From the NCBI RefSeq assembly GCF_026151205.1, contig NC_087075.1:8731303-8795302 (forward strand): a stretch of 64,000 nucleotides of DNA, in the 5' to 3' direction. The notes beneath the pieces are model-generated. The model was not told the origin of the DNA. It did not search any database and saw only the letters and a list, made by a program, of their open reading frames with translations. Origin of the DNA: Bolinopsis microptera (lineage: Eukaryota > Ctenophora > Tentaculata > Lobata > Bolinopsidae). The position numbers and the translations under genes were made by a program. This document shows, in pieces, positions 1-43,218 of the stretch. Positions within the stretch are counted from its first letter, which is position 1; each line of letters begins with the position of its first letter.

Positions 1-1980
1 TCTATCACAAACGTATTTTAGGAAACCTCCTACTTCCCTGATCTTGCACTCACCTGAAGTTAACTTATTAAACATTTTGAATTTTGAACCATATTCCATA
101 ACCTGAATAATGAATCTGTAATATACAAGATTACTTTTATTCGAATGTTCAAAAAGTTACCAGCATTTGAACCGGAGCTGGAACCAGGGCCATATCTTGC
201 TTTTTTCGGAGGATATGGATTGTCTTGCGACGAAATAATATCATATAAAACGATGATAGCAAGTGGCAAAAAAATCCGCATTTGAATTTGCAAAAATGTA
301 GGATTTGTTATAAGAAAATGAATAATTTTTCTGGGTCAACCTGGCCTTGCTTATATAAGTGTTTATTGTTATATATTATGCTCATATCATACTTGCCACC
401 CCATGGCAACATTAAAATAGATGCGACTATTCGGATAACCGCTAAAACACTATTTAATACCAGGTCACGCTGCTCTGTGCGTTTGGTCAGATGATTCAAT
501 TAGAGTTAGAAAAATGACTGACGGACCAAACTTGATCAATTAACAAAGATTTTTTATAAGAGAGGCTGGGCCAAGATAGCCCACGAGAGGATAGCATTGA
601 GATGCTCTGCCTACCTCTGGGGTGTGGCAACCCTGGGGAAGGTTGCCGGTGAAATCAGAGTGATTGGTGGAGGATGGCGTAAAGATTATGTGTTCAGGGA
701 CAGTTCTCAATAAATTATAACCAAAAAGGAACGACCGATCACCGTAAACCATGATGTTGCTAAGCGCAAAATGGTACAGGGTCCCCGACCTTGGTAATGT
801 GCACGGAGGACACCAGTAACGCGGGTACCATGCTTTGCAGGCATGAGCTGAAAAGTTTAACCTAGCTGCAGAGAGGTGTAAATTCCTTAGGCACATGTAT
901 TACAAATTTACTGATGGATCGCATCACCAATTAATCGTCACTGATTGGATGACATGAATTGAATTATATAAGATTGACGCATCACCTGTAGCTTTATCAA
1001 ATGTATTGCTAGTGCTTCTTAGTAAGACATCTAGCGTCTAGCAGTTCGCTCATTGCAGTTCGCTCAGAACAGGGTTTTTACCAAGTTTCTGTGATTGTCC
1101 CCATTATTGCGGGTTCCAAAGTAAGTCTCGTTTATGCTGAGACTTATCACAATCAATATCATTTTATTTTACAATAACCGTCCCGTACACGGATTGATCG
1201 TGGCTCGTGCGTATGATAGCATTGGGGTGTTATACTTGACGTTCAATATGTTGCGAGGTTTGCTATTCTTTTCAACTCTTATAAAAACAAAGGCTGACAT
1301 CTCAGACAGCATTGTTTTCTACGACGTCAAACATTTGACACCCAAATGCTACAGAAAAATGGTGTCTTTTCTTTTTTCTTGTGTCACTGGTCAGTGGTCA
1401 GGTCTCCAATGCTCTATCTTACAGTGGTCACGATCTTACCATTAGTGATATTGACCACAGCTACAGCCCCCTACGAAGAAGAGGTCAGCCGTTAACCTTA
1501 TCAATATCAAGAGCCGACGAACAACATGTTCAATGGCCAACAATAAATATTGAAGATTCTCTAACATGCTACCAGTGCAATAAATTCTTACTGCCAGCCC
1601 AAATAATGGCCGTTGAATGCTCAATATAGCAATACAAATAAAATAATACTAGCTGTTCGGGAGCTATTCTATTGCCACCTCTGTTTCATTGGTATCCCTT
1701 TCACAACAGGGAAAAAAGGAAATCGCGGCATGTACGGAATCGCGATTTTTCCCATTATTTGCGACAAATTTTATGTATAGTTTAATGTATAGTCTGTTAA
1801 AAATCGCGGTATCTCGAATTTTGGCCAAAATAATCGCGAAATCCTTTTGTACCTGTAATGCACAATGAGCCGTAATTTGGGGCTAGGATCTTGTCAATTC
1901 CCTCACGACTGAAAATAATAACTTTTTCAGAATATCTGTTAACTGCATCACGTGATTTAACTAATAACATTCCATTTTAG
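1..1980. other. No gene identified; upstream of first visible rootletin exon
   Basis: I find no convincing exon here. The first rootletin exon starts at 1981 with two bases of a split codon, so at least one more 5' exon must exist. None of the open stretches here encodes coiled coil, and none ends with a donor in the needed phase that I could defend. Longer open frames at 540-896 (minus) and 1381-1629 (plus) lack a recognisable domain. The missing N-terminus probably lies upstream of the window. Confidence 0.5.
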
Positions 1981-4900
1981 CCCGACTAGAACAACAATGC
2001 AAGTCTGCCTACTTGGAAGCACAAAGCTTGCTCGACAACGAGAGATTAGCAAGAGAACAACTGGAGATTGTGCTGGGTGAGAGGACCAACTCTTTCAACG
2101 ATCAACAACGAAAGTAAGATCCCTAAATTAGTTTGTGTATTTAAACCTCGTGAAGTTAAATGATGTTTAATTTCGACGATAAATAATTCCCGGAACAATC
2201 TATAGCATAGTTTATTGTACCGACGAAACATCTGACCGGTGACCTGGGGGTCCTTTGCCTAAAAAGTACCGGTTAATAGTTTTAGAGTACTAGTAAATTT
2301 TATTATTCAATTTCATCTCAGTATATCAGTCTGTTAGCTTGTAATTTCGCAACTCGCAAGTTACATTTGAAATATAATTTGTTTGTTTGTGTCAATAACA
2401 ATCTGTCGTCCAGGTTCGAGAGCGAGAAAACAGAGCTACAGGGGACTATTCAGCAACTGCAGAGTACAGTTGACACGCTGACTCGGGACCTTGCTTCCAC
2501 TGACACCGAACTCAACAAGACCAAGGCTGACTTCTCTGATCTGGTGAGTTGTTCGTTTCAACTTACGTTTCTAATCTTAAAGTTAAACATTGAACAGGGA
2601 TCTGAAGTCGATTGTATTTATTTGGTAAACCCTGCGCCGAAACGTTTAAGTCTTATATGGTCGACTGGTCGAGCGATCACTTTAATTTGCAGCAGATGTA
2701 TTACTATTAATGCATTTATAAAATTGGGACCAATGTAAGTGTCAAGTTAATTCCCTTTCCTAATGCCAGAGCTTTGAGTGGCATAACTTACCCTGTAATC
2801 GATTTCTAATGGACTTCTGATTGAATCGAGCATACTGTCACCAGTATTACTATACATGCACCATCCTTTGCTTTACATTCTTTTATCTCTAACTTCACGC
2901 AAATTTCTGCACACTCGACCCAAATACCCCCTTCTCGCTCAGTTTGCCTCACTGTGAAATGTTCCAGGACCACGAAAAGGGTATGACAGACGCACATCTC
3001 TCCCGAGAATCGGAGAAAGCAAAGAATCTGAAGAATGAAGCTGAGTCGTACAGTACCACTCTCAAGGACATCATCAACGCGGTGTCACGTGCACAGGCTG
3101 CCATGGGACTGGATTGTACCCTGGATTCCTCTCTTAGAGACATCCCCAGACCAGGGTCTCCTAAACGATCTGCCTCACCAACACGGGACGTTGCACGAAC
3201 TGGTGAGTCATCCTAGTGGATAATTGTATTTCTGTTTCACAATTGTTGTAACTGTGACCCAGCCCCAGGACGTTGTGCCCCAGACTCCCGAGCACTTGTA
3301 GTGCAATTAAGTCTTAAAAAAGGGGATATTTCAAATTCAATTGTTATCTACTATATCTCTATATTTCCCCCTCCCCATATACTAACTATGTGTCCTAACA
3401 GGAACAACTAGTTCAATTGTTAAATGTTAACTACTAATTTCCCCCTCCCCATATACTAACTATGTGTCCTAACAGGAGCAACTAGTTCAATTGTTAACTA
3501 CTATATTTCCCCCTCCCCATATACTAACTATGTGTCCTAACAGGAGCAACTAGTTCAATTGTTAACTACTATATTTCCCCCTCCCATATACTAACTATGT
3601 GTCCTAACAGGAGCAACTAACGATGTTGTGAACTCTGTCCTCTCCTCCGTACCCTCCCAACACCTCTGTGAATGGGCTGCTAGCTCTGTCAGGTACAGTT
3701 CTATAGTTGCTCTACTACTTTTACTGTTCACAATATTCATTGTATTTCGCTACATTACCAACTAATTGGAATTAGTGAAAACTACCCCTATACTATCTCA
3801 ATTGTTAACACACCCTCGTTGTAACAGGGCTACAATCTGTGGATTTGAGGGTAGAATAGAGGAGCTGATGGCAAACGTAGAAGCAGGGTTAGACTCGCTG
3901 GATGAGAGTCACAAGGAGAGTGGTAAAGTGAGGGGTGAGAACGCTGGACTGTCCAAGGCGTGCGAGGCGCTCAAGGCTGAAATCTCCGAGGTCAAAGGTG
4001 AGGATTTTTGGGGCGAACTTTCTTGGTACATTATAGTTTTGTTTTCGTTTCGATTAAAACTTTTTTCAAATCTTTACTTTCAGTTGAATCGAATGTTTTT
4101 TATTGTATCAATTGTGTTACCTACTATTTTTTGTGCTCGGTTAGCGATGGAGAAATACCTGATTACCATTTTCCTTCAGACTCATTAGACGAGAGGTCCG
4201 GGCAATACAACAAAGCAATGGACGAAATATCAGCCCTCAGCACCGCTAAATCAGGTTTTTATTTGATAGTTTTACAAAAATTATTAAACTAAAATGATCA
4301 AGCTCAAACTTTGAAAATATGTTCCATTAATTATTGAGTGTAAAATGCTAAAAGTATTTTCAGAAAAATCAAAATGTACTCTCACGCACTCATGTTTTTG
4401 TTTTCTAATTTGATCGGTCTTTATTTGATCGGACATTACGTGGACGCTGAATGGGTCCACGTAATATCAACCAGTAGTAAAGTCCGGCTACTGGATGTAT
4501 AACTCTCAAAAACATTTTTGCATCCATGATTAGTCCAATCAAAATTATTTGTCCACGTATCGGAACATCTTTAATTCCCTCTTCTCCGTACTGCCCTTAT
4601 AAAAAAAAGTTTCAGTAACCAGTACTTTTTTCTTGATTTTGTCTTTTTTATACGGATACACCATGACATCACATTTCCAGCACATCTGTCCACCGCTGGC
4701 CGATGTTTGGCTACTCTTCCACACGTTCTTACATCCAGAACAACAGAAGTGGCCAAACATTCTATTTTTGCCCTGATTAACTGCTGAACCGCTGCTCTGA
4801 AAAGAGAGATATTTTAGATACATTCGTTAAAAATGTGTACTAAGCTCCTCTTAGCTCACCTAATGAAACTATTATGGTTACCAAAATCAGGATTCGTAAA

Positions 4901-7900
4901 CTAATTTTACCGCTGTATTTTTTGAAAAAAAAGATGGCATTTCAAATTGAAACGTTTTAAAAACATGATAAAAAACACATGATCATACAAGATGAAGTCC
5001 AGAATATATAAATATTGAGCAGAATATCTTACTTGATCCGACATTGTCTGTGTGAGGATCTCAAATCAAAGGAAATGTTAGATCGAATCCAATGAAAGGT
5101 GTTTAGCAATAAAATGAAGACCGCGATTCTAATCGGCTTATTAAGAGATTAAGGTGACAAGCATCAGTGTGAAAATGGTAAGCATCAGCGTTTGGCTGGC
5201 AAGAGTCATCCAGCTTTAAGTGTTCATCAACCGAAAAGACTGCTTGAAAATTATGTAGAAATTCAAACTTCACCGTTTGGCTGGCAGATAATAACATGAT
5301 CTGCCAGCCAGGCACGTAAAAATTTTGCGAAATAGGGTGTTTTAGACGACATTTGGCATTAAAGAAATTTGTAGGACAGCAATAAACTGGGATTGAAAAG
5401 AATCAAGTACTCACGTAAATTTGGTAACTTCACAACAGCAATCTGCATTCTCCAATCAGAATTTATGACTTACTCAGGCCTCATCGTCTTAAGATTTTGA
5501 CATTTCCTACGGCCTAGGAGACACTATTGACTATTTATAGAAGTCTTCTAGAATGTTCGCTTCGATGTTATGACAGATATTTACTAATTCACATTTCAAA
5601 TCTTTGACTGACTGCAGTCATAAACACAGCCCAGTTACCAGGCGACCATGGGGACTAGGGGGCTTATCTTTTTTCTGGGGTTCAATTTTTTTTCCGGTGG
5701 GTGCAGCCACCCTAGCCCGCCCCCCCCCCCCCCCCCCCCCCCCCCTGACTACGTGCCTGCTGCCAGCCATCTTGCCAGCCAAACGGAGAAGTGTAAATTT
5801 ATACTAAATGTATTACCAGTTTTTCTTCAGCCGATGAATCTCTGATCATGATTCCAACTTTGTACATCGTCGAAATGCACCGGTCGAATTGTCAGTAGAA
5901 CGGTCGACCGACTTGAGCGCCATCTTTAATTAGTTTGTTTTTTAAATACACGTCTTCAGGTCTAGAAAAGAAGATTTGGGAGAATCAAACTTTCAAAATA
6001 TATTCCATTAATTATTAAGTGTAAAATGCTACAAATATTTTCAGAAAAATCAAAATGTACTCTCACGCACCCATGTTTTTGTTTTCTAATTTGATCGGAC
6101 TTTATTTGATCGGACATTACGTGGACGCTGAATGGGTCCACGTAATATCAACCAGTAGTCAAGTCCGCTACTGGATGTATAACTCTCAAAAACATTTTTG
6201 TATCCATGATTTTGTCCAATCAAAATTATTTGTCCACGTATTGGAATTCCTTGTATTCCACCTTCTCCGTTTTGCCATCAGTACAAAAATGCAGAGTTTC
6301 AGTAACCAGTACTTTTTTCTTGATTTTGTCTTCTTTATATGGATACACCATGACATCACATTTCCAGCACATCTGTCCACCGCTGGCCGATGTTTGGCTA
6401 CTCTTCCACTCTTTCTTACATCCAGAACAACAGAAGTGGCCAAACATTATATTTTGGCCCTGATTGACTGCTGAACCGCTGCTCTGAAAAGAAAGATATT
6501 TTTTCGAGACATTCGTTAAAAAATGTGTACTAAGCTCCTCTTAGCTCACCTAATGAAACTACTTTGGTTACCAAAATCAGGAATTGTTAGCTAATCAAAC
6601 TTTGTGAACCGCTGTACAACCGGTGTATTTTTTCCATTTCACCCTTTTGAAAAAAGGCAATAGTGAAAGGTTACGAATGGTCGTTTTTGCAGAAAAACGT
6701 GGATTTTGGAGATTGGGGTAGGTGGGTCAAATATATGTCGTGTTCCTTCCGTCCGTTACCAAGCAACGAAAAAGTTGCGCGCGCGCGAGGATTGCTTGCG
6801 GAGATGTGATGTATAGATAGCCTGTGATCTATGAATGCGCGGCGCGACTGTGTTTTAATGTATATGATGCATGTTATGTATAATATTACTAATAGGTAAT
6901 TCGCCCAATTTGTACGTGGCACGCGTAGTGTATTGATGTGTACACGAGTATAGTTTACCTTTGCTGATAATTTCTTGAATTACAGATACAAGTTAAGTTC
7001 TACGGCAATTGAACTGAATTTTTTCCCGTATTTGATGCATAATTTATCAATATTATTATCATGAAGATTGAAGTGAGCTGATTGGAGCTTATACTTAAAT
7101 TTATAGTAAATGTGAAATGGAAATCTAGCGTCCGCCAAAACGAAACAACGGGCGCAATTCTTGTTTGGAGATGAAAGTTGGCATTTCAAATTAAAACGTT
7201 TTAAAAACATGATAAAAACACATGATCATACAAGATGAAGTCCAGAATATATAAATATTGAGCAGAATATCTTACTTGATCCGACATTGTTCGCCTGTGT
7301 GAGGATCTCGAATCAAAGGAAATGTTAGATCGAATCAAAGGAAATGTTGGATCGAATCCAAGGAAATGAGGACCGCGATTCGAATCGGTTCATTAAGGCC
7401 AGAGGTGGGGGGGGGAGGGGGTAACAATTCTTTTTTCCGTTTTCACATATTTGATCAGAGCTTAGATGGCAAGTAGTAAGTACGTACGGTGCAGGGCTTT
7501 AAGTACGTACGGTACAGCTACTTTTAAAGGTACGTACCGTACAGGCACTGTAAGGTACAATTTTTTTTCAAATTTTTAGAATCAACTTCAGTGAATTACT
7601 TGCAATTTTTGATTAGTATTATCATCATAATTTTTGAAATAGAAGTCGAAAATAAACACAGTGGTTAAAACAATACAAGATTGAAGAGGAAAATTTGTGT
7701 ACCGGATCGCTCTTAGTCTTAACCGGTACTACACTACTACTACTTGTCATTATCGTTAAACTCAAAGCTTCATCCTTTTGTTGCAGTATACGAACACCAG
7801 CTTTTCAGCTAGCTCAGGTCGCAACCTTAATCTACGCTTGTCCATAATATACTTGTAATCTCTAAAATTGGTCTCACAAATTGACGAAGAACTTAAAACA

Positions 7901-10900
7901 CTGAATGAATACTATTTGGGCCAACTGTTTAAGCAGAAAAAATTTTGAGAATTTCGCGCGAAGGTTCCAATTCTTCTACTTCTGGATTAATCTGCGCACG
8001 TACCGTCTAGTTTTTGTTTCCATTGCTATCAACTGGATTTGTACCTTTCAGCCTACTTTATTAAGTACGTACCGTACAGCTAATTTAAAGGTACGTACCG
8101 TACGTACTTGCCATCTTAGGATCAGAGCTGCTGGAGACGAACAAGAAGAAAAAACCGGACCAAAATCTGACATTGTGTTTTCGAGATATTACATGTAAAA
8201 CTTTAACTTAAACTCAAAAAAGGTAAACCTCCTTTTCGGGAAAAGACTGGCCACACCCAGAAGCTGAAATTTGGTACAGGTGTTCCTTGGGTTGTTGCAC
8301 AAAAACGTTATGTTTTAGAATTTTGATTTGAAAACTGGAAAAACGATTTTTACCCCCCGCCGCCCCCCCCCCCCCCCCCCCCCCCTCTGGCTTTAGTGTT
8401 ACTAGCATCAGTGTGAGCCTCATGGTAAGCAACAGCGTTTGGCTGGCATGAGTCATCCAAATATGCGTTCAGAACGCATACCTACTTGTCGGAAATTTGG
8501 TTGAAATTTAAACTTCTCCGTTTGGCTGGCAGATAATAACCTGATGTGCCAGCCAAACGGAGAAGTGTAAATTTATACTAAATTTATTACCAGTTTTTCT
8601 TCAGCCGATGAATATCTTATCATGATTCCAACTTTGTTAGTCGAAATGCACCGGTCGAATTGTCGGTAGAATGGTCGACCGACTTGAGCGCCATCTTTAA
8701 TTTGTTTTTTAAAAACTCACGTTTTCAGGTCTAGAAAAGAAGAGTAAAGATTTGGGAGATAGTTTGACGAGTTCTCGTGGCGAGGCTTCCAATCTTACTA
8801 CACTTAACACCGAGCTTAATGTTCAGGTATGAAGGAACCTTTAAATTACTGCAGCGTATTCATAATCATATTAGATGCAATCTTTTCTATTTTATGTCGA
8901 GTCTTTGGGAGTTTCAGCGTATACATTTAATAATTTATCACCTCAAATATTCATGGTTCGCGCATCAAGCATGTGTACATTCCTAGGATGATCTCTTTCT
9001 CATTAAGTTATTACACGGACCTTACTACTATACAGGTTGCGGGACTACAATCTGAGAAGGAGCGTCTGTTAGCTGAAAAGAGTAAGAGGAAGGATCAACT
9101 AGCTCATTTAACTGAGGTGAGTGTTATGACGTCACTTGGTTTTGTCATGATGTCACTTGGTTTTGTTATGACGTCACGTAGTTTAGTTTTGAGGGAAACA
9201 TCACGTGTAATCATGACGTCATGTGATATCCAATCACCCTAAATGGTGACATTATCAATATCAATGGTTCGACACTGTTATTGTTTTTTTTTTAAACAAT
9301 CAATGATGGTGTCTGGACTTTTAAATCGATGCCCTGTAAATATCAAAATTATTTTTCATATTACATATTTATTATTTAATAATCATGTTCAAATTATTTT
9401 GCTACATCTGAGTATAAAAAGTCAAAAGTAGCGAATTTTAGCTAATCCCGACACACTCTACGCGAATTAGGAGCAAACATCAAAGCAGTGTGTACTCTAA
9501 AACTACACGACTAGTGACTGGAGGTAATCAGCGGCCCATTACACACAAATAGAGACCCCTGCCATTCCACGTTAAGGGTAATTACATGGCAGGTGGCCAA
9601 TTAGGAACCCTTATTCAGTCACGTGACAAAGAATAAAGTAAAGTGGTCAGAGAGAGGAGGGTTTAATAGACATCCGGGTTCGAGCCCTCCAGCAAGCTCA
9701 TGCAACCCCTTCTTTCTTTTATACATCCGAGTAGCAACTACCGTGTACAGTCTTTTACTTTCGGTATATCTTTTCTTTGTCATGTCTTTAGTTAATTGTA
9801 CTTGGGCGCGAAATTTGAAACTTGCAATATGCATATTGTGAAGCTGTTTTAGAGTTTATTCAAGACATTTGGGCTCGGGTTAATTATTTGTTGAATTGTT
9901 TTATCGTCAGTCGTTATTTGCACTACAAACCCATCGCTTTTATTTTGTCTTACCATTTGCTTCGAACTTCTTTTTTCTTTATCACCATTCTATGTATACT
10001 GTATAGGTCCAGTTGCCTCTACGGAGAAAGAAGTATGAACCAGCCTACCTAACGAACTTTACGGCTACCCCTTGTCGAATATCAGATTGACAGTACACGG
10101 TTCCAATTTCCATTCAATCGGGCCACATTGCAGTGTGAGGCCCTGTGATTCAGTTTGAAATATTAGAAAGAACAGCTTTCAACTAGTGATTATCAAGTGA
10201 TTATCAAGTGATTATCAAGTGATTATCAAGTGATTATCAAGTGATTATCAAGTGATTATCAAGTGATTATCAAGTGATTATCAAGTGATTATCAAGTGAT
10301 TATCTCTTACTAATATCTGAGTTGAATCTCTACTGAACATGATGCGAGGATCCCGACCTGTGCATAACCTGGTGAAGGTACATGGTTACCTCCACATAGA
10401 TGAGGACTCGGAGAACCAATCCCCCGGTGGTAACACCACTGGGCCTAACCTAAGCTACGTAGTCTTGGACCCTCATGGGGGTAATGAAAAACCCGGCAAA
10501 CAGAGAAATTTTGAGAATTCAGGTGGTGATCATGATCATAGGTCTCCTGAGAGGAGATTAGATGATCATAGATCTCCTGAGAAGAGATTAGATGATCATA
10601 GGTCTCCGGAGACAAAAACTCTCAATATCAGTGATCATAACATGAGGGATCAAACAAGGGTTACTGGTCATAAATCAGCTCACCAGAGAAAAGATCGCCA
10701 TGATCATCGCATTAATCATCGCAATGATCATCGTATTGATCATCTTATTGACCATCGCATTGACCATCGTAATGACCATCGTAATGACCATCGCAACATA
10801 ACGACAAGCTCGCACAACGACATCAGCAATCTAAATCAGACAAACGATTCCAGTCAGTCTGCCATAATAGATGTGACGGAGGATCTGTATCAGACTCCGC

Positions 10901-13900
10901 CTGGAGCTGACGACCACAAAAAACCCGTGAGTTAGCTAGCGAATTATTCTGTATCAGACTCCGCCTGGAGCTGACGACCACAAAAAACCCGTGAGTTAGC
11001 TAGCGAATTATTCTGTATCAGACTCCGCCTGGAGCTGACGACCACAAAAAACCCGTGAGTTAGCTAGCGAATTATTCTGTATCAGACTCCGCCTGGAGCT
11101 GACGACCACAAAAAACCCGTGAGTTAGCTAGCGAATTATTCTGTATCAGACTCCGCCTGGATCTGACGACCACAAAAAACCCGTGAGTTAGCTAGCGAAT
11201 TATTCTGTATCAGACTCCGCCTGGAGCTGACGACCACAAAAAAACCCGTGAGTTAGCTAGCGAATTATTCTGTATCAGACTCCGCCTGGAGCTGACGACC
11301 ACAAAAAACCCGTCAGTTAGCTAGCGAATTATTCTGTATCAGACTCCGCCTGGAGCTGACGACCACAAAAAACCCGTGAGTTAGCTAGCGAATTATTCTG
11401 TATCAGACTCCGCCTGGAGCTGACGACCACAAAAAACCCGTGAGTTAGCTAGCGAATTATTCTGTATCAGACTCCGCCTGGAGCTGACGACCACAAAAAA
11501 CCCGTGAGTTAGCTAGCGAATTATTCTGTATCAGACTCCGCCTGGAGCTGACGACCACAAAAAACCCGTGAGTTAGCTAGCGAATTATTCTGTATCAGAC
11601 TCCGCCTGGAGCTGACGACCACAAAAAACCCGTGAGTTAGCTAGCGAATTATTCTGTATCAGACTCCGCCTGGAGCTGACGACCACAAAAAACCCGTGAG
11701 TAAGGTAGCGAATTATTCTGTATCAGACTCCGCCTGGAGCTGACGACCACAAAAAACCCGTGAGTTAGCTAGCGAATTATTCTGTATCAGACTCCGCCTG
11801 GAGCTGACGACCGCAAAAAACCCGTGAGTTAGCTAGCGAATTATTCTGTATCAGACTCCGCCTGAAGCTGACGACCGCAAAAAACCCGTGAGTTAGCTAG
11901 CGAATTATTCTGTATCAGACTCCGCCTGAAGCTGACGACCGCAAAAAACCCGTGAGTTAGCTAGCGAATTATTCTGTATCAGACTCCGCCTGAAGCTGAC
12001 GACCGCAAAAAACCCGTGAGTTAGCTAGCGAATTATTCTGTATCAGACTCCGCCTGGAGCTGACGACCGCAAAAAACCCGTGAGTTAGCTAGCGAATTAT
12101 TCTGTATCAGACTCCGCCTGGAGCTGACGACCGCAAAAAACCCGTGAGTTAGCTAGCGAATTATTCGGAGCTGTGTCTCCCGCACCAGCTGAGTAATCCT
12201 AAATCCTCTCCGCGCCGGTTAAGATCTTACTCGAACGGTTAAGCTGTGGATGTTGGTTCATCTATGAGGACTGTGGAGTTTTGTCCGAGAAGAGACAGCA
12301 TATAAATTCTAAAAATTCTTTTAAATTTGAAGCATGACTTCGCGTCATAAATATAAATGTGGGCCTTGCAGATTGCAGAATTGTACATCCCTCACCTGTT
12401 TAGATATCTGCTAATTCTAGCTCGAAAATATGGATACAATCCCGATATTACCCAGCTAAAACTTTGTCCCAACCCCAACATTAATTAACCCTCACACCCT
12501 CCCTACAGCGTTCTGACGTCCTACAAAGAGAACATGCAGCCCTTAGCAAAGAAGAACAGATCCTACGAGGGAAGCTGGGCAGATCTGAGACTGATGTGGC
12601 GAGGCTGAGTGAACTGAAAGTGGAGATGGGAGACAGGGTACAACAGCTAGAGAGGGTCAAGAGCGATCAGACTGATGTTATTGGCAGGTTCGCGCATTGA
12701 TGACGTGCAGATTTTGTATTATAAATGGATTCTGGATGTCATGTGCAGATTATTTATCATATAATTATACGTGATATGGATTCTGGATGTGTTGTTAAAG
12801 TTTTAAAAAATCTTCCGCATCACACATCTAACGAATCTGTTTTCAGAATGAAACTAGAGAAGCAGTCCTTCGAGGACAAAGTGTCCCATCTTGAGACGAC
12901 TCTTGGACAATTGGAGGCGGAGAAGATTGACATGAAGAGCGCTCTAAAAACTGCAGGTTACTTGAGCTAAATATTAAGGGGAAATGTTTTGGGAAATTGA
13001 TGTCTACGTCATAACTTTAGTTTTTGAGCTCTGTCTTCAACAACAAATCTAACAACTTATCTGTAGGCATTGAACGTGTGAAGCTGAGCCAACTTAAGGA
13101 TGAAGCTGAGGTGGACAATAATAATCTTAAAAACGAGGTAAGAGATCAAATTATTATTTAAAGTTTCATTTGCAAATTACAAGTAAAGTCCTAATGTATG
13201 AGTCAGCCTCGTGATTACAATCCATAAATTCCAACGACTATTTTCTAACAAAAACTACCATTTTCAGTTGGCAACACTGATCAACAAGTTCGAACTGATT
13301 GACGGAGAGAAAAATAGGCTGCTTCAAGTGAACAACGAACTAGAGATTACCAAAGCTAACCTCGAGGAGTGTGTCAGAAATATCGACAGAGAAAAAGGTT
13401 AGTTTCCTTTAAACTTAGCTTGTCTTGATTCTGTTCCTGTGACCCTACTCCTTAAAAATGCTCCTTTTATTCAGTTAGCCTCACAACAAATTCTTTTTCA
13501 GGAGATCTGAACGAGTCGTACACATTGCTGGGTATGGAGAAGGAAGACCTGTTGGACACTTTGGAGACGTCTACCAGAGAGAGGGAGAAACTTGGACAGG
13601 TGAGATTATTTGTTCAGTTTTCATTTCGCTGCCTAGAGCTGTAATATCATGACGAATGTTTTGACGCCCTCTTCTGATCACCATCACAACTTTTTACATT
13701 AAACATTAAACATCCTAAGATAAATACTGAACAATATCCAATAATAGGATAATTGATAATCAAATATAATGATTTAATAATTTAATAAATATAACTATTA
13801 ATCTCTCAGACCATCGTACGGATGGCTAAAGCACGAGAAGATCTAGTAAAAGAGAAACACCAGTTGAAGGAGGAGCTAGGAATGGTGGAGATGCGACTAG

Positions 13901-16900
13901 ACGGAGCTATAGAACAGAACAAGAGTCTAGCAGAGAGTAAGGCTAGCTTAGAACAGTCGCTCCACGGTACAGAACAGAACCTGGCACGTGTTGAGTTGCA
14001 CAAGGAGAGTTTGGAGAGAGAAGTGGAGGAGCTGGTGCAGATAAAGGAGGATCTGACTGTCGAGCTGGCAGCTGTCCAGAAAGAGAAGGAGATCCAGGTA
14101 ATGTTCTTTTTAAACACAAGGAAATATCTTAAACTGAACACTTACCTAGGACTAGGTATACCAGAGGATTAACCAGGATGAGAAATGAATTTATAAGCTC
14201 ATTAGATACTCAAAATTTGTTCTCCTAATTCCTTCACGTTTTTACCACAATATTAGTTTTAACATAGCTTCAATCAGGGAGTTACACTAAGTAAGGATAT
14301 CGAGCAGCTCAAGGTAAGACTGTTACAAACTACAAACGATAAGAACAACCAGATCGAGAGACTCAACAAGCAGATGCAGGACGCTCTCAGACAAGCAGAG
14401 GTAATAATCACAAGACTCTGAATTATGTTTTTTTGTAGACTGTATCACTGCTAGTTACAAAATACACGCAGTTTTTCTATACCTAAAAATACAACAACTG
14501 TGGAGTCGTTCTGTATTGAAGTCTGTCTTATACAATGATGATATCTGATAAGCCGGTTGCTTAACCAATAACCAGCGTCATACTTTCAATCGTAACTCCC
14601 AATCTCTTGCAGGAAGAAAAGGAAGACGCACTCTTTGAAATGAAACGATCAAAGGATCAGGACCTAGAAATAGTGTTAGCAGAGAAGCAGAGCATGGCGA
14701 TAAGAGGCGAGAAGGAGAGAGAGGAGTTACAGGACGAACTTGACAAAACCAGGACCAATCTCAGGTAAGGGGTCTTTATTTTAAAGTGAGGTTGGAAAAG
14801 ATTGTTATTATTATTAACAAGCAAAAGTAAAACGAATGTGAAAATGATAGTATTAGTATCAATAAACACTTCCTCTCAAAATCTGCATTTAATTACGCAA
14901 TATGAAATTTCATCAAATTAATGGATCATGTTTTTTTGTTCAGTGAGTCAGTAAACAAGCTGATGAAAGAGAAACATGAAGCGATACAAGACCTGGATGA
15001 ACAGCGAGCAGCAGTGACAGAGAAGCTTCACAAGCTGGAGAGACAACATGACCACACCCTGTCCGAGTATGAGAGAGCTAGGGACAGCTTCTCTATGAGG
15101 TCTCAGCAGAACAAGGAGGAGATCGCTGGCCTGCAGGTAAACTTAACAGAAAGTGAAACTTAAATTGGAACTTAACTGCCTGTTCAATTTTGTAATGTTA
15201 TCTTTCCCCATCTTAGATTCTAAGAGGACATTCGATTTTGAATTCTTGATCTTCTCAGACATTTTTAAATACTGCTAATTCAACTTTCACTGCAGCATTT
15301 TTTGTAATTCTTAAACCTCTTCGCCACCACGACATGAAGAAGAAAACCCACTAAACTGCCATTTCTTTCAGGACAAATTGGAGAAGACAGGAGACGAGCT
15401 GTCAAAGACAGAACACTCTCTCCGAGCCCTGACCACCAAACATAACGACACGGTGCTTCGTACCACTAAAGATATTGAGGATCTGAGAGAAAAGTGTGCT
15501 GAACAGGAGGATGACAACGCTGCTCTTTCTCAGGTAAATGTTGTTAACTGACACGTGACTTTTAAGTTTGACACGTGACTTTTAACATTCTGTTTTAAAC
15601 TCGAACTTAAGCTGATGAGAACACCCAAGATTCATCACAATTGTTGAATTGTTATACTAATTTTTTGATTGCTGTAGTTAAAAACACACTGCTATTTCAG
15701 GAGATACAAACGCTCCGTCTGAAGCTCGCTGAAGCGGAGGGATGTCTTGAAGTGGTCAGATCACACCTCCAGGATGTTGAGGCAATGAAAAAAGAACTGG
15801 AAGAAGAGCGAAGCAAAACTCTTACCGAATTGGGTACGATCGAACAGAAAGCTCGAAGAGACGAAATCGAGAAAGAGAGCTTCCAACGAGATGCTCAGGA
15901 GCTGAGGAAGAGACTTGCCAAGACAGAAGAAGCAAGAGAAGCCATCAAGGCAGAAGCTACCAGTCTACGAGGAAGAATGGACGAGGCAGAGGAAGAGAGG
16001 AAGAACATCTGGAAAGAAGCTCTGGAGCTTAGAGCTGCGATACGTCACACCGAGAAAGCTAGAGCGGACGCGAATAAAGAGCTGGATGAACTGAACCATA
16101 AGGCTCACATCTTGGAGGAACAGAAACAAGAAGCAAAATCGGGGCTGGATAACTTCAAGAATCAGCTCTACAAGCAGGAGAAGATGGCCCAGGAGGACAC
16201 TAGGACTATTGATATACTGAAGACAAAGTTACACGATGTGGACCAGGAAAGGGGAAAATCTCAGAACGAGCTGAATAATTTGAGGAAACAGATCAAGGTA
16301 GTGGAGGGCCAGAAGAGAGATACAGAGGACAAGCTTCGTGGAGCAGTGGAGAAGTTACAGAGAGAAGAGAGACAAGCGGACAAGAGAGCCCGAGCTCTGG
16401 AACAGATGTTGGAGGAAGCAGGTAGAGAGAAGGGTGAAGCTGAGTGTAAACTATCAGGTGCTGAAGGCAGAATGAACGGTTTGGAGAACCAGCTAACCAG
16501 AACAGAAGGACAGAGAAAGGAGCTTCAGCTCAGACTCGCCAACCTTGTCTCCGTGCTTCAAGCTACACTTGGACTCAGAGACCTAACCCAACCGTCCCTC
16601 ATTATCCCAGAGGAAGAAGACTTCGGACCACCAAGCCGCTCATCCTCTCCCATCAGACGTCCCATATCTCCCAGCCGGATCAACAGATCTGCATCACCCT
16701 CCAGATTGTTGGGAATGGCAGGAGAAGCCCAAGTAGAGGCTGAAACAGTTAGACACGCCGTCCTGCATTTAAGAGGAAGTCTCGCTAACGCTGAGGGAGA
16801 ACGAGACGAAGCTATCGCTACAGTGGACAGTCTCCAGAGAGCAATGAAGGAGCTGGATGAGGACAAGAAGAGGGGGGACCTGAAAGTTAACAGTTTGCGT

Positions 16901-19900
16901 GATCAGATCGCCAGCATGGAGAGTGGAATACGAGGAGCTGACGGCAGGTTGGTCACCGCTCAACAAGCCCTGTCCCAGCAGGAGGAGAGATACAGATGTG
17001 GCGAGAAGGAGAAGACCCTGCTAACGGAGAAGTTGAACAACGCTAATAAACAGTTGGCAGCATTGCAGGAGGAGAGGAGGGAGTTACAGGAAACAGGTCA
17101 TAAACTAAACCTCTCTGTGAAGGGGTGCGAGAGGGAGAAGAAGGAGCTCCAGGACAGGTAACTTTTTTATACAGAACTGCTATTTATATAATGAAGTTAA
17201 TATAACAAATATTGTCTGTTATGCTTGAAATTTTAAATAAATTTCATTATTTATATCTTATCTTCTCAGACTAGAAGAAGTAGCCGCACAGCTAGCAACT
17301 GGAGAGAGAGACAAAAGACAGACCCTGGAGGAACTGCAGAAATCTCAGCGACAACATATTGAGGGAGAGGCAGAGAGGAAGGTTCTCCAGCAGAGACTTG
17401 AGTTGCTGAGACAGAGTCTGACTGAGGCAGAGAGGGAGAAAGGACAGTTACAGGATCTTTCAGCCAGACTCACCAAATCTCTTCAGGTTTGTTATATTTG
17501 TCACTTTTTTAATCAGAAATTAATTTGGCTTTAAAGATCGGATGTGTATCATTATTTAACTGAGACTAGCTCTTGATCTTGAAATAATGTTGCATCAATA
17601 TTCAATCTTTCTGGTAATTTTCTCTCGGACTGCAATTTACCTCATACGATTCATCAAATTTATCTTGCTCATCTTAAGAAGACACCCTATAACCTTTTTC
17701 CTGTTCAGAAAGTACAGGAAGAAGAGAAACACCTTCTGGGGACTGTGAACGATCTGAACCAGTCCCTAACGGACAGCCAACATGGTTCTCAAACTCTTCA
17801 GGAGAAACTCACTCAGTATCACAAGAGACTGAACGCTGCAGAGAGCGAAGGACGAGTACTCAGTGAGAAATTGGCAGCGCTCCAACAGAGTCACTCAGAA
17901 CAAGAGGACCTTATCAACAGACTTCAAGAGAGGATGGCTACTCTACAAAATAACCTAACTGACAATGAGGTCCAGAAGATACGTCTTGAGGGACAGGTGC
18001 GGAACCTGCAGCTCACCCTTCAACAGAAGGATAATTTGATAGAGGACCTCAACAGTAAGATTGAGGAACTGAAGGGGGAGAAGGAGCATCTTAGCAAGGT
18101 CATCAGCCAGACTGAACACTCCGCCATGCAGGTAATGAGTCAGTTTTCTGTAATGTTTGTTGATACTTCTGATATTTATGATAAGGGGTCGTTCACATAT
18201 TACGTAATCAGCTGAGGGGGGAGGTTCCGAATGATTACGCTAGTGTAATTTTTACACAATAGCTATGTGTAAAACTGTTTACGGAGGGGGGGGTAAAAAT
18301 GTTTCAAAAAACGATTACGTAATATGCGAACGACCCCTAATATGATAATATGATAACTTATTAGTTGATGATCACCACTATAAGTTAGAGTATATTTTCT
18401 GTTCGTCTCCTCGTAACGAACACTTCTCACTCCAGGCTGAACAAGAAAAGCGGGGTCTGAAAGAAGAGCAGATAATCTCAGAGAAGGAGAAGAGAGGTCT
18501 CCAGCAGATGTTGGAGCTTGCTACCGCGGAGAAGAGCCGTTTGGATGAGCAGCTGAGTTTGGTGGAGAAGAGACGAGGAGACTTGGAGACCACCCACAAT
18601 TCTACTAGCAGAGAACAAGCTAAAGTGAACAGAAGGTGGGTGCTTCAACAATCTACTGTTTTAGTAGTTTTATTCGGGCTAATAACATACCTTTCTGATA
18701 GGTTATGCCTGGGAAACTTTTGTTATTCATGCATTATCTTTGAGTTCCTGTCTCAACTGAATGCGATTTAAGTAAGATTTAGATACTCAGATATACAGGG
18801 AACCTCATTAATTAATTAACGGTTTTACAATTTCAGACTAACGATGACCCAGCAGCAGTTAGCAGATACTGAACAGAGCTTTAACCAGCGACTTACCGCC
18901 GGCCAAGTCAGACACAAACAGGTCAATATCTTATTTGTGTTACTGTTAATTACTCAGATCTATACTGCGGTGTTCAAACATATTAGGGCCTAACTTGATT
19001 TTTTAAAATCGCTCAATGATTCTCTTTCACATTATGTGTGTATGAAGTATGACATTCTCACAATTGCTAAATCTCAACCCATGCTAACAGGAGTTAGTAC
19101 GTGAACAAGAGAGGGTGAAGAGAACAGAGAAGTTACTTAAAGAGGAGCATGAGCGTGGGAATTCTCTGCTAACCCGTGTCAAGGATCTCGAGATCCAGAA
19201 CTCTTCTCTCAGGTTTAGAAACTTTGCCATGCAGCATTAACAAATATTTTGATATATTTCAAGCTTTTTTAGCCCACTTTTTTGAGATTGCTGTTATCTT
19301 TTATGAATCAATCAACTCCAATCCCACCAGGTCTCAAATATCTGAGGGGGCCCTGAAGAGACAAAGCTACCTCGACAACTCTTACAAAAAGAGTGCTGAG
19401 ATCAGAGAACTGAGAGGACTGGTCGGGGACTCCTTTAACTCGCTCGCTAAAGATCCGGCTGTGGACAGTTCTTTGTTACAGCACGAGGTACTTACATTTT
19501 TACATATTTTACATATTTTACATATTTTACATATTTTACATATTTTACATATTTTACATATTTTACATATTTTACATATTTTACATATTTTACATATTTT
19601 ACATATTTTACATATTTTACATATTTTACATATTTTACATATTTTACATATTTTACATATTTTACATATTTTGCATATTTTGCATATTTTGCATATTTAT
19701 ACATTTTACATATTTACTTACATTTTTATATTTGTCAGTTCTAGCTACTTTACTAGACAGAACACACTGCCATTTCACTAATTACTTTCACTTCGACGTT
19801 GAGGGTGTTATTAAATTGATAGAATTGAATCCACCATGGTTTACAATTCCCTGTTCTACTTCAAGACAAATTGCGGTTTAAGTTTCACTTTCACTTTCTC

Positions 19901-20062
19901 TTTCAGGCTGGCAAGTTAGACAGAAGTTACCGTGGTCGAGCCTCCCCCGACAGATCAGTCTCTCCCTCACGTTACTCTCCTCGGATCCGCCACACCTCTC
20001 CAGAGAGACCTGTCAGACTTCTTACCTCACCTAAAAACACTAGCACACCTATCCGCAGATAA
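1981..20062 (+). CDS. CROCC: Rootletin (ciliary rootlet coiled-coil protein), 26 exons, 5' end missing
   Basis: Rootletin builds the striated ciliary rootlet that anchors basal bodies, and helps link centrioles. Exons: 1981-2113, 2414-2543, 2968-3202, 3611-3692, 3828-3997, 4180-4254, 8729-8826, 9036-9116, 12509-12687, 12847-12956, 13067-13137, 13268-13397, 13502-13599, 13810-14097, 14278-14400, 14613-14764, 14944-15136, 15372-15533, 15701-17157, 17270-17486, 17709-18131, 18436-18635, 18837-18921, 19091-19212, 19331-19487, 19907-20062. All phases chain and sum to 1,774 residues plus TAA; human rootletin is about 2,017. The protein is almost entirely heptad coiled coil rich in E, K, Q, R and L. 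It is broken by three Ser-Pro/Arg linkers: SPKRSASPTR in exon 3, SPIRRPISPSR in exon 19, and the C-terminal SPDRSVSPSRYSPR. Those positions suit proline-directed phosphorylation (inference). The start is not in the window. The call rests on length, coiled-coil continuity and linkers; another long centrosomal coiled coil is less likely. Confidence 0.85.
3366..3620 (+). repeat. Four tandem copies of a 3' splice site before rootletin exon 4
   Basis: A unit of 67-74 bp is repeated. Each copy carries a pyrimidine-rich stretch, TACTAAC, the acceptor CCTAACAG and the first exonic bases GAGCAACTA (GAACAACTA in copy 1). Acceptor AGs end at 3401, 3475, 3543 and 3610. Only the last continues the rootletin frame into exon 4. 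Splicing to the first three reaches TAA within the repeat. Confidence 0.85.
4545..5044 (-). CDS. Mini-gene A: small 3CxxC-like zinc-binding protein, nested antisense in rootletin intron
   Basis: Two exons are read on the minus strand: 5033-5044 (ATG, peptide MSDQ, donor gtaaga) and 4545-4796 (acceptor ttttcag, stop TAA). They give an 87-residue protein. Near the N-terminus it reads FGHFCCSGC, then about 20 residues on CWKCDVMVYPYK, then a Lys-rich stretch, ending YVDK. The spacing FGxF-CxxC-x(n)-Gx-CxxC-xxxVxPY resembles the zinc-binding domain of ZAR1/RTP-type 3CxxC proteins, several of which bind RNA or assist receptor trafficking. Only two CxxC pairs are present, so it may be a reduced form. 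The gene sits wholly inside rootletin intron 6 in reverse orientation, and a second copy follows. Expression is unproven. It could be part of a mobile or recently captured element. Confidence 0.5.
5033..5044 (-). CDS. First exon of mini-gene A (MSDQ)
   Basis: A four-codon exon, ATG TCG GAT CAA, is followed directly by gtaagatatt on the minus strand. The identical exon and donor recur in unit B at 7276-7287. The phase (0) matches the acceptor at 4797. An exon this small would be easy to miss without the second copy. Confidence 0.45.
5715..5746. repeat. Poly-C tract
   Basis: An uninterrupted run of about 28-30 C. A matching run occurs at about 8357-8385 in the second duplication unit. Run length in an assembly is unreliable. 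Confidence 0.9.
5960..5983 (+). pseudogene. Truncated duplicate of rootletin exon 7
   Basis: Twenty-four bases after an intact acceptor (cgtcttcag) match the first part of exon 7 at 8729 but lack seven bases (agtaaag). The match stops at the duplication junction. No donor follows, so it is unlikely to be spliced in. Confidence 0.75.
6226..7287 (-). CDS. Mini-gene B: second copy of the nested 3CxxC-like protein
   Basis: Exons are 7276-7287 (MSDQ) and 6226-6483, encoding 89 residues. It keeps FGHFCCSGC, the GGQMCWKC pair and VYPYK. It differs from copy A mainly in the C-terminal third, which has a net two-codon insertion and many substitutions without loss of frame or of the YVDK end. Preserved frame through an indel suggests the reading frame mattered after duplication (inference). 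The intron is 792 bp versus 236 bp in copy A, enlarged by inserted sequence between about 6600 and 7180. Confidence 0.5.
7465..8115. mobile_element. PIF/Harbinger-like MITE, 651 bp
   Basis: The ends are inverted: GATGGCAAGTA at the left and its complement TACTTGCCATC at the right. Both are followed inward by repeats of the palindromic string GTACGTACCGTAC and its complement. The element is bounded on both sides by TTA (7462-7464 and 8116-8118). A 3-bp TTA target duplication is typical of PIF/Harbinger elements. There is no transposase frame, so it would be non-autonomous. It is present only in unit B, so it inserted after the intron duplication. Confidence 0.65.
9117..10186. other. Rootletin intron 8, first part; no gene identified
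   Basis: AT-rich intronic sequence. It begins with short repeats of a tgacgtca-type motif (9126-9220). At about 9640-9715 a stretch contains gggttcgagccctcc, which resembles the internal B box of a tRNA, but no full cloverleaf is visible. Confidence 0.6.
10187..10305. repeat. 11-bp minisatellite (gtgattatcaa), about 10 copies
   Basis: Near-perfect tandem copies of gtgattatcaa end 34 bp before the ATG at 10339. The position fits a 5' flank or leader of the 10339 exon. Confidence 0.95.
10339..10935 (+). CDS. His/Asp/Arg-repeat protein: possible alternative first exon of rootletin, or a small gene
   Basis: The frame opens at ATG 10339, 18 bases after an in-frame TGA (10318-10320). It runs 196 codons to a donor, CCC|GTGAGT, at 10926. 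Without splicing it ends at the TAG at 10933 (198 residues). The peptide is hydrophilic. It has three DHRSPE blocks and a run of DHRN/DHRI tetrads from a 12-bp repeat (about 10700-10795), ending in YQTPPGADDHKKP. No known domain is visible. The donor phase (0) equals that of rootletin exon 8 and fits exon 9 at 12509, so an alternative promoter could produce a shorter rootletin with a charged N-terminus (inference). Alternatively it is an unrelated or non-functional frame. Confidence 0.4.
   Translation: MMRGSRPVHNLVKVHGYLHIDEDSENQSPGGNTTGPNLSYVVLDPHGGNEKPGKQRNFENSGGDHDHRSPERRLDDHRSPEKRLDDHRSPETKTLNISDHNMRDQTRVTGHKSAHQRKDRHDHRINHRNDHRIDHLIDHRIDHRNDHRNDHRNITTSSHNDISNLNQTNDSSQSAIIDVTEDLYQTPPGADDHKKPVS
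10885..12165 (+). repeat. 20 tandem 64-bp copies of an exon end plus 5' splice site
   Basis: The span of 1,281 bp equals 20 x 64 plus one extra A in a single copy (about 11233). Each unit runs ctgtatcag, actccgcctgga, gctgacgaccacaaaaaaccc, then gtgagttagctagcgaattatt. That is the last 42 exonic bases of the 10339 exon followed by its donor and 22 intronic bases. Variants include one gtcagt donor (about 11312), one gtgagtaag copy (about 11695), and a block of later copies with ccgc for ccac. Copies are otherwise almost identical, which indicates recent expansion or homogenisation. Confidence 0.95.
12166..12508. other. End of rootletin intron 8; no feature seen
   Basis: Unique AT-rich intronic sequence between the 64-bp array and exon 9, ending in a good acceptor (ccctccctacag). 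Confidence 0.7.
18184..18338. mobile_element. Short inverted-repeat MITE in rootletin intron 21
   Basis: The ends are AGGGGTCGTTC and GAACGACCCCT, extended by attacgtaat near both ends. Total length is about 155 bp with no coding capacity. A related single end occurs at about 21553 (gggtccttcacatattacg). The flanks are TA-rich, so the target duplication is ambiguous. Confidence 0.6.
19495..19725. repeat. Minisatellite (acatatttt-type 10-bp unit) in last rootletin intron
   Basis: About 22 copies of a ttacatattt unit start within ten bases of the exon 25 donor (gag|gtactt). The last copies drift to ttgcatattt. The array makes long artificial open frames on both strands that are not genes. Confidence 0.95.
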
Positions 20063-22340
20063 ATAGTTACTCTCTTAAATCATTAAGTATAATCATTCTC
20101 GTGATTATGCTTAATTGTAATTACGTATAATCATAGGCTCTGAATTTTTGGTTAATTAAACACTGTAGACCGGAGGCTTTTCAGCTTTAAGAAGCGGTTT
20201 TTTTTTTCGGCATAGAAACTGATGCACGAACGGAATGTGTAAACTGTGTAATTATATTTTATAACTGTAATTTAATTTTGTAAATATTTTAAACGAAAGG
20301 GCTGGCAGCAGAAACCGACAAGTGTTAATTATTCTCTCTGGATATGATAATTTCATAGCATGTGTCTTCTAGTTCTTATTTCATTGGCGCCTGGACTGCA
20401 TTGGTATCGGTATTGGCATAGAATTAGATAGGATAGCTAAAAGTAGCTAAGAGTATATGGTGGAATTCAACAACCTAAGATAGATTAACTGAATTGGTAA
20501 TTTTAATTTGGTTTCTTTCATAACTGCGAATAGAGGGGAAAGTGTGTTGTGACAGGATTGTAAATATAATGGTAGACTCTTTAAGCTCTGTAAACGATAC
20601 AAAAATTTGACTTCGCCAATCTTATCTTTACATCTCCGCTGTTTTTGGTAGGATCTGAAATTATTTACTTAACAGCTTGATATACATTATTTTATCTCTT
20701 AATAGATTATTTTATCCGTACCTTGATTTCTTTTTCTAGTATAAGATTTATGAGAAAAAAACATGCGAAATTATGTCAACTAATTGACATTGTAAGTGGA
20801 ATCCACAATTTCGAAACTGACAGCTTTAATTATAATAATAGGTATAACAAATTGAAAAGATTTGAGCAAATAATTGAGTTCGGGATTAATGATTGTATTT
20901 GATCTGATTTAAACCGTATGAAGAATCACTTGTGATGTATTATGTTTTTGTGTTCGGGAAGATTTCTGGTTTTGTATCTGAAAGTTAATCACGTGACGAG
21001 GGTCAAGTGGTCTATATTTACCCTATGTTGCATGGTTATGTACTATAGGAACATTGGTAGAATTTACCCTACCAATTTTTGTGTTTTAAAAATCAAATTA
21101 GTGATTTGTATTTGTCGATGCTTTGAAAATTATGGAAGAACCAAATATGATACATAATAAAACAAATGAAATCTAAGATCCAAAAAAACAAATGGTTAGT
21201 TAAGTTTAAAGTTTAAACATGAAAATAATTAAATTGTGAGGAGTCTATCCACAATATACAACATTATCCGATATTTCATCAGTCATCTACACGACAATTC
21301 GGCGCTACACTCAGTCGTCAGAAACTTGCACCACCGCGAGTCGCGGCCGCCGCTGCCGCGAAATTTTGACCCAGACCGCCGCCGCGAAATTTTGTCCCAG
21401 ACCGCGGTCTTTGAGGTGTTGGCTGTCAGATCAACAAAAGAACAAATACAGCTGTGAACGACGAATTTGTGATTTGTCTTCTGCAGCTTAATACAGTATT
21501 CAAAGTCTCAGCTCTGATAACTGTAATACGTCCGTACACTACTGTATCATTAAGGGTCCTTCACATATTACGTAATTTTTATTTTCATCGCTAACTTGTC
21601 TTTGTAGGTTTATAACCTATTAGGACGCGCGCCGAGTTAGACGGTCCTCGAAAAATATATTTTACGAGCATCACCCGTCAAACCTGTTTTCGATCGATTT
21701 GTACCTAAAAAGTAAAAATGTAAATGACGTTGGTGAATTAACAATTTAATGATTTCTTTGTTAGATTATTTAACTGATGGAGTTGCTGTCATCATTTACT
21801 GATTAGATAAGATCTTTAGCATTTAGGTTGACGGATGTTACTCGTCTTAGTAGCGATGGCAAGTGCTAGTGCTACGAAGTAGCGCGCCGGGCTAGACGGA
21901 GACCATTAACATGAACAATGGTCAAATCTTTAGGTAAATCTGGCTAATTTTATCCAGCGATCTCTAAGATTCAGTACTTTGTCTGCTAATAATAACAGTC
22001 AGCCAGGGGCCAGTCTTTTATAAATGTCGAATACAGTCAGACAACATCGACACTCGACTAAAACTTTTCGTTAAATTATGCGGATTATTATATTCGATAT
22101 CAACGAAACTCCTTCGTGAGAAAAAGCATAAAATAAAATTCCCAACGAAATATTAGATCAATTTTAGTTAAATGAAATAAGCACAAATCTCCCAATCGAT
22201 GGCTGCCTGTAAGTTAGAATAACTCTCTATTGGTACTCTCTTGATCGCTTTTTCTGACAGCCATCTTTTTAACAATTAGTTTTTTACAGCAGGCATTAAT
22301 AGGTATTTTAAGAGCTCGGCTCACTTTTACAGAGGAGACA
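20063..22340. other. Rootletin 3' flank and intergenic; no gene identified
   Basis: AT-rich sequence with no supported exon. AATAAA at 21156-21161 could be the rootletin polyadenylation signal, but this is weak evidence in AT-rich DNA and would imply a 1.1-kb 3' UTR. A local GC-rich patch at 21335-21410 contains repeated cgccgcgaaattttg; I cannot assign it. Confidence 0.5.
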
Positions 22341-22344
22341 CCAC

Positions 22345-22715
22345 GGTATGAGTTCAGATAAAGTTCCAAGTTTGCACCAGGCTAAGATAGTCACTGTGGT
22401 TTGAGTTCAGATAAAGTTCCAAGTTTGCACCAGGCTAAGATAGCCATTAGTCACTGTGGTTTGAGTTCAGATAAAGTTCCAAGTTTACACCAGGCTAAGA
22501 TAGTCACTGTGGTTTGAGTTCAGATAAAGTTCCAAGTTTACACCAGGCTAAGATAGCCACTGTGGTTTGAGTTCAGATAAAGTTCCAAGTTTGCACCAGG
22601 CTAAGATAATCACTGTGGTTTGAGTTCAGATATAGTTCCAAGCTTACACAAGGCTAAGATAGCCATTAGTCACTGTGGTTTGAGTGATCAGATAAAGTTC
22701 CAAGTTTGCACACGG
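22345..22715. repeat. About 53-bp tandem repeat (ggtttgagttcagataaag), seven copies
   Basis: The unit is gtggtttgagttcagataaag-ttccaagtttgcaccaggc-taagatagtcact, with variants carrying an extra agccattagtc segment. It lies just downstream of the GPCR stop codon (minus strand), in its 3' UTR or 3' flank. Confidence 0.9.
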
Positions 22716-22788
22716 TGGTGTGGTTTGGCTGTATCTCTGGACTCCGAGTAGTGCAGTCCTTCGTTGACTATACATTTGTATAGTGTCC

Positions 22789-25587
<2,799 letters not shown>

Positions 25588-29038: not shown

Positions 29039-43218
<14,180 letters not shown>

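Follow-up and report, generated by a model that had tools for sequence, protein, structure and literature searches.

Three minisatellites in a 64-kb window of the ctenophore genome, the window being the whole stretch at positions 8731303–8795302 of contig C4, consist of tandem copies of an exon edge together with its splice site. We think it likely that these and similar arrays elsewhere in the genome are "mirages", that is, ordinary minisatellites that arose from a tandem duplication that happened to span an exon/intron boundary. We infer that the founding duplication would have straddled the boundary by chance, giving a unit that joins part of the exon (4–43 bp in the window) through the splice site to part of the intron, and that unequal exchange or slippage would later have expanded the array. 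The copy beside the exon body would keep the reading frame and be the site spliced productively. Those beyond it would be intronic and could drift freely in number, and splicing to one of them would mostly produce a stop or a frame shift. The number of edge arrays that we see needs no process that seeks out exon edges.

Exon-edge arrays in the window

Array 1 (about 3340–3619, plus strand) repeats a 3ʹ splice site region four times in tandem; TRF reports 3425–3619 with a period of 68 bp, and the left end was judged by eye. Each of its units, which are 74, 68 and 67 bp long, comprises a TACTAAC-like sequence, an AG and 9 bp from the start of the exon, and the acceptor copies give exon starts at 3402, 3476, 3544 and 3611. 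The last, exon-proximal copy fits the exon at 3611–3692 (plus strand) of a gene for a long coiled-coil protein, which has a single open frame across four exons (2943–3202, 3611–3692, 3828–3997 and 4180–4254). A Pfam scan of this protein returned no specific family; it may be rootletin-like. A dispersed element of ~150 bp lies at 1699–1868, with at least 38 further copies at 93–97% identity, found on each of contigs C1–C13.

Array 2 (10884–12166, plus strand) has 20 copies, according to TRF, of a 64-bp unit formed by the last 43 bp of an exon, GTGAGT and the start of the intron. Its first donor GT is at 10927. The exon that ends there (10339–10926, plus strand) is a 200-codon open frame with its own ATG at 10339, shortly after an in-frame stop, and its phase-0 join to the next exon of the coiled-coil gene (12509–12687, plus strand) reads KKP/RSDVLQRE. 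Because the exon at 9036–9116 also joins 12509 in frame (AHLTE/RSDVLQRE), and because the ATG follows so soon after a stop, 10339–10926 is probably an alternative first exon. In-frame coding repeats occur within it at 10532–10612 (30 bp) and 10700–10796 (12, 24 and 36 bp), all with periods that are multiples of three. A 21-bp array detected by TRF at 9122–9192 (plus strand) begins 5 bp into the intron with donor GT at 9117; it is adjacent to an exon edge and does not copy the GT.

Array 3 (24037–24361, minus strand; 16 copies in TRF) has a 20-bp unit with a TAGC/GTAAGT donor. It lies at the end of an exon of a rhodopsin-family receptor (24358–24547, minus strand, with an approximate upstream limit). 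This exon runs from the DRY-like motif of the receptor up to the loop that precedes the next exon, which begins at 23699. The exon-proximal donor reads NEETVS/GTAAGT, with the exon ending at 24358, and the spliced protein matches 7tm_1 (PF00001; 2.5e-16) over residues 2–224, spanning the junction at array 3. Run on the raw sequence, our own gene finder ended the exon at 24364, 6 bp earlier, and the exact donor is therefore uncertain. The array is abutted by a GTCT microsatellite of 68 copies (23767–24038), and a 39-bp array of six copies (22805–23040) lies in frame within the C-terminal tail of the receptor.

The initial annotation described these arrays as copies of an exon edge that include the splice site. 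This description holds, and in each array the exon-side terminal copy fits the reading frame. This copy would be the productive splice site, because the further copies lie in the intron and an added unit gives a stop in all three arrays; frames and homology agree with this assignment.

The window contains other duplications. Identical 80-aa minus-strand frames at 40527–40769 and 41066–41308, 539 bp apart, represent a recent local duplication, and two near-identical transporter genes occupy 48231–49651 and 57534–58951, ~9 kb apart; the first copy is MFS_1/Sugar_tr by Pfam.

Recurrence outside the window

The pattern is also recurrent, as had been claimed. We found seven further edge arrays outside the window: two definite cases in 200 kb of random DNA, and five among 16 arrays on contig C1. 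The C1 arrays were picked by donor motif from motif listings, three of them (L036, L040 and L044) with one end only. Since this set was chosen by donor motif, it is unable to measure an excess.

In the random DNA, L021 has 51 acceptor copies at an SNX5-like exon (PDB 8a1g, E 9.2e-12), with homology starting at exon residue 2. In L027, 48 donors follow an exon whose frame spans 250 aa and for which a Pfam scan gave no match; L025 is a possible further edge array. On C1, L039 is at the acceptor of a CDK2-like exon (E 5.6e-22), and the alignment passes the junction gap-free; the 286-bp intron of this gene (L039, 1821–2112) is almost wholly a 41-bp array. The L044 array, read on the opposite strand, copies the acceptor of an exon that is copine-like (E 2.6e-7), and L040 is at the donor of a dynein-heavy-chain-like exon (E 0.016). 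The exons whose donors are copied in L030 and L031 are paralogous and sushi-like, with Pfam E-values of 0.024 and 0.0026, neither of which reaches the curated cut-off. Although they share the same donor edge, L030 (C1:401 kb) has a 34-bp unit and L031 (C1:428 kb) a 54-bp unit, and these differing lengths reflect independent origins or strong turnover.

Three more C1 arrays, L033 (at a C8-domain exon), L029 and L038, lie close to a predicted edge, ending 3, 10 and 13 bp away. The remaining eight of the 16 have no clear exon edge by the gene model and a one-strand test. Our rereading of C1 covered L029, L030, L031, L033, L038, L039, L040 and L044, with L034–L037 and L041–L043 assessed by the one-strand test only. 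A first tally, in which 2 of 13 C1 arrays had coding sequence upstream, was too narrow, being limited to one strand and to donors, and was set aside. L041 and L042 (C1:36.6 and 761 kb) share a 32-bp unit, AGGTAAGTACCTGAGTAAAGAGCGCTATCATG; they belong to a dispersed tandem family and have no clear coding edge.

Both types of boundary are affected. Array 1, L021, L039 and L044 copy acceptors; arrays 2 and 3, L027, L030, L031 and L040 copy donors. In arrays 1–3, L021 and L027 the copies carry the splice signals. Neighbouring copies overlap by 9, 43 and 4 bp of exon in arrays 1–3, and by 28, 5, 41, 26, 32 and 8 bp in L021, L027, L031, L030, L040 and L039, respectively, counted as exact runs, which understates the diverged terminal copy of L027. 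The periods of the arrays that we noticed within coding sequence (39, 30, 36 and 54 bp) are multiples of three, whereas those of most edge arrays are not (64, 20, 67–74, 68, 32, 34, 41 and ~46 bp), neither being a systematic count; the exceptions among edge arrays are L031 (54 bp) and L040 (57 bp), both of which lie outside the frame. This contrast is what selection on reading frame alone would be expected to produce.

Edge arrays, chance and seeding

Are edge arrays more common than expected by chance? We combined the window with the 200 kb of random DNA, giving 264 kb of a 264.65-Mb genome in 232 contigs. TRF arrays with a period of at least 8 bp are dense: 178 non-redundant arrays cover 40.9 of the 264 kb (15%), 5.4 kb in the window and 35.5 kb in the random DNA. 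For splice-site prediction we built our own hidden Markov gene model, with the same 264 kb as training data. The coiled-coil gene is recovered by this model, which also placed an exon in the GTCT microsatellite; repeats with a period below 8 were masked in later runs. For the overlap test, 177 arrays (period 10–200) were collapsed to one unit, and the frequency with which a predicted splice site fell in the unit was compared with that under circular shifts. The outcome varies with whether the left or the right copy is kept on collapse, and the test under-counts, because L021 and array 2 escape the gene finder whichever copy is kept, as does the L027 donor array in one of the two schemes.

For all 177 arrays, we observed 10 overlaps against 8.2 expected with the left copy kept, and 5 against 7.8 with the right copy kept. 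The window, with 33 arrays and 121 predicted splice sites, has 2.25 ± 1.4 expected under circular shifts. With the left copy kept, 5 were seen (P 0.07), or 6 once the array 2 donor is added manually (P 0.02); keeping the right copy gave 1 against 2.2 expected. Thus, three edge arrays in 64 kb is not far from chance. The initial annotation argued that minisatellites placed at random would seldom fall on an exon edge, and that three cases in the window were improbable; this argument fails because arrays and exon edges are both dense here.

The annotation's own test compares overlap with that at shifted positions. In the random 200 kb there is no excess (left copy, 5 of 144 arrays against 5.5 expected; right copy, 4 against 5.1), whereas some left-copy subsets show up to about twofold. 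Among arrays of 2.9 or more copies, counting splice sites no more than 5 bp from the unit, the left copy gives 12 of 87 against 5.35 (P 0.008) and the right copy 7 against 5.06 (P 0.23); in random DNA alone, the corresponding values are 5 against 3.6 and 4 against 3.3. Another subset gives 9 of 67 against 4.4 (P 0.03) with the left copy and no excess with the right. A post hoc subset of the window only (at least 2.5 copies and a period of at least 15, with the array 2 donor added by hand) gives 6 of 13 against 1.3 (P 0.0005). Some of these values hint that edge arrays are commoner than chance; the excess ranges from none to about twofold by subset and scheme, and is larger in the post hoc window subset. 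A twofold excess is compatible with the data, as is no excess.

An alternative to chance duplication is that exon edges are preferred seeds, with paused polymerase, R-loops or spliceosome-bound nascent RNA starting duplications, such that mirages outnumber the chance expectation. We consider this unlikely, although it is the reading favoured by the left-copy subsets. It is also favoured by the C1 set, in which 5 of 16 donor-motif arrays hold a coding-exon edge against a chance value of ~1 per 15 arrays (a rough figure for a 40-bp unit and one site per 570 bp; the set was selected by motif, and the five include two paralogues), by the three arrays ending close to a predicted edge, and by the different units at the same edge of the paralogous sushi exons. 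In our own count, exon edges occur at 4 of 9 AGGTRAGT arrays and at 1 of 14 isolated AGGTRAGT sites (Fisher P 0.056). Against preferred seeding stand the random 200 kb, the right-copy scheme and the behaviour of the donor motif itself.

Tandem triples of GTRAGT number 29,841 genome-wide against 11,753 for the reversed motif, and those of AGGTRAGT number 2,312 against 198 (gaps 6–36) and 3,084 against 207 (gaps 38–68); CAAGGTRAGT gives 154 against 0, and a permuted motif 566 against 447 for its reverse. We rejected this excess over reversed motifs, more than 10-fold for AGGTRAGT, as a sign of splice-site seeding, because AGGTRACT, a one-letter neighbour that is not a donor, is equally over-represented (2,525 against 25 and 2,726 against 56 for short and long periods). 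Single counts of AGGTRAGT and AGGTRACT are alike (19,232/15,615 and 19,048/15,354). Repeats favour GGTRAC words too: when the 2,080 hexamers are ranked over 85 array units, GGTGAC comes 12th and GGTAAC 13th. AGGTRACT triples exceed the reversed control 50- to 100-fold even though this motif is no splice consensus. Within the 177 array units, a position weight matrix (PWM) finds strong donors in 2, against 0.19 expected at threshold 8 and 1.26 at threshold 7, which is too few to interpret. GT[AG]AGT occurs in 7 of the 177 units and the reversed motif in 8; among the 55 arrays with at least four copies the counts are 7 and 3. Among the matches listed, donor arrays numbered 6 over the initial 4.2 Mb of C1 (two being one dispersed family), neighbour arrays 13–14 over 27.4 Mb, reversed 5–6 over 39.7 Mb and permuted 10–11 over 72.5 Mb; with counts this small and regional, donors could still exceed the neighbour by up to threefold.

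If exon edges were a preferred birthplace of minisatellites, thousands of splice sites would lie in mirages, paralogous edges would be hit independently (L030 and L031), whole introns would turn into arrays (L039), and mirages would keep altering intron length and supply material from which new introns could form. We put this forward tentatively and rather doubt it. The two definite cases in 200 random kb extrapolate to ~2,600 genome-wide (95% range 320–9,600); adding the window, which was picked for having edge arrays, five cases in 264 kb extrapolate to ~5,000 (range 1,600–11,700).

That some of the arrays are incidental, with splice-like motifs in repeats, no exon at the edge and false gene models, is an improbable explanation. 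In its favour, 11 of 13 GTRAGT-rich arrays have no clear coding sequence upstream of the first donor on the motif's strand, and the gene model predicts no coding flank for the L017 array. Homology or long frames at the edge of array 3, L021, L039, L044 and others argue against it.

What becomes of the extra copies? One extra unit leads to a stop in seven of the nine cases read (arrays 1–3, L021, L031, L039 and L040), to a frame shift in L030 and to an in-frame insertion in L027. The splice dinucleotides of the decoy copies are intact. In arrays 1–3 and L021 pooled, changes affect 0 of 178 such positions and 79 of 5,030 others; the corresponding figures for L027 are 7 of 110 and 165 of 1,650. 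Intact dinucleotides in nearly all copies, and the in-frame insertion that the first extra L027 copy would make, could suggest that the repeats have a role in splicing, as modulators or as binding sites for splicing factors, yielding isoforms or kinetic control, but such a function is very unlikely, since most arrays are near-identical at all positions, so that intact decoys need no selection, and an extra unit usually gives a stop.

Comparison with known tandem duplications of splice sites

In the minisatellite of the human interferon-induced gene 6-16, a short repeat covers a donor site; the extra donors are reportedly used in transcripts, whereas here the exon-proximal copy would be the one used. 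In human segmental duplications, minisatellites at exon–intron boundaries have been tied to novel introns (PMC2812944). Tandem repeats likewise lie at the boundary in that account, which treats them as exon/intron change between paralogues and not as splice-site arrays. In potato RdRp, an intron was reportedly gained by tandem duplication linked to splice sites (PMC4974935), as here; there the duplication creates an intron, whereas here existing introns are lengthened. A C. elegans minisatellite linked to alternative splicing (PMC4039745) was rejected as a parallel, as it concerns motifs within introns and not exon edges.

The initial annotation knew of no named class of such repeats. The class is that of the amphioxus mirages, which PMC3087553 describes in Adh3 and globin genes as minisatellite-like tandem duplications of the exon/intron boundary, both 5ʹ and 3ʹ, under a name taken from work on amphioxus Adh3 (with Canestro et al. 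2002 cited), and proposes as a route of intron gain. Their units are 10–72 bp in Adh3 and 150–160 bp in globins, with many copies carrying AG/GT signals; in one globin gene the two haplotypes have 6 and 3 units, and RT-PCR there pointed to undisturbed regular splicing (PMC3087553). The lancelet PGBD5 gene has 60- and 108-bp repeats, and troponin C is also named (PMC3902484); the PGBD5 repeats are imperfect and include a 3 × 108 bp triplication, unlike the arrays described here. In the part of the literature that was searched, no ctenophore report of mirages was among the matches listed.

Our cases are concrete ones, several with homology at the edge, that bear on how a single site is selected in splicing from among dozens that are nearly identical, and on whether such arrays seed new introns. 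The arrays here differ from those of amphioxus in that the host is not a chordate and they are known from the sequence of one assembly, and they reach ~58 copies by TRF, in contrast to the 3 and 6 copies reported for one globin gene there. They resemble amphioxus mirages in that the unit spans the boundary, 5ʹ and 3ʹ edges are both affected, and the copies carry splice signals. This suggests that mirages are common in another animal lineage besides lancelets, the only group that we have met in print under that name.
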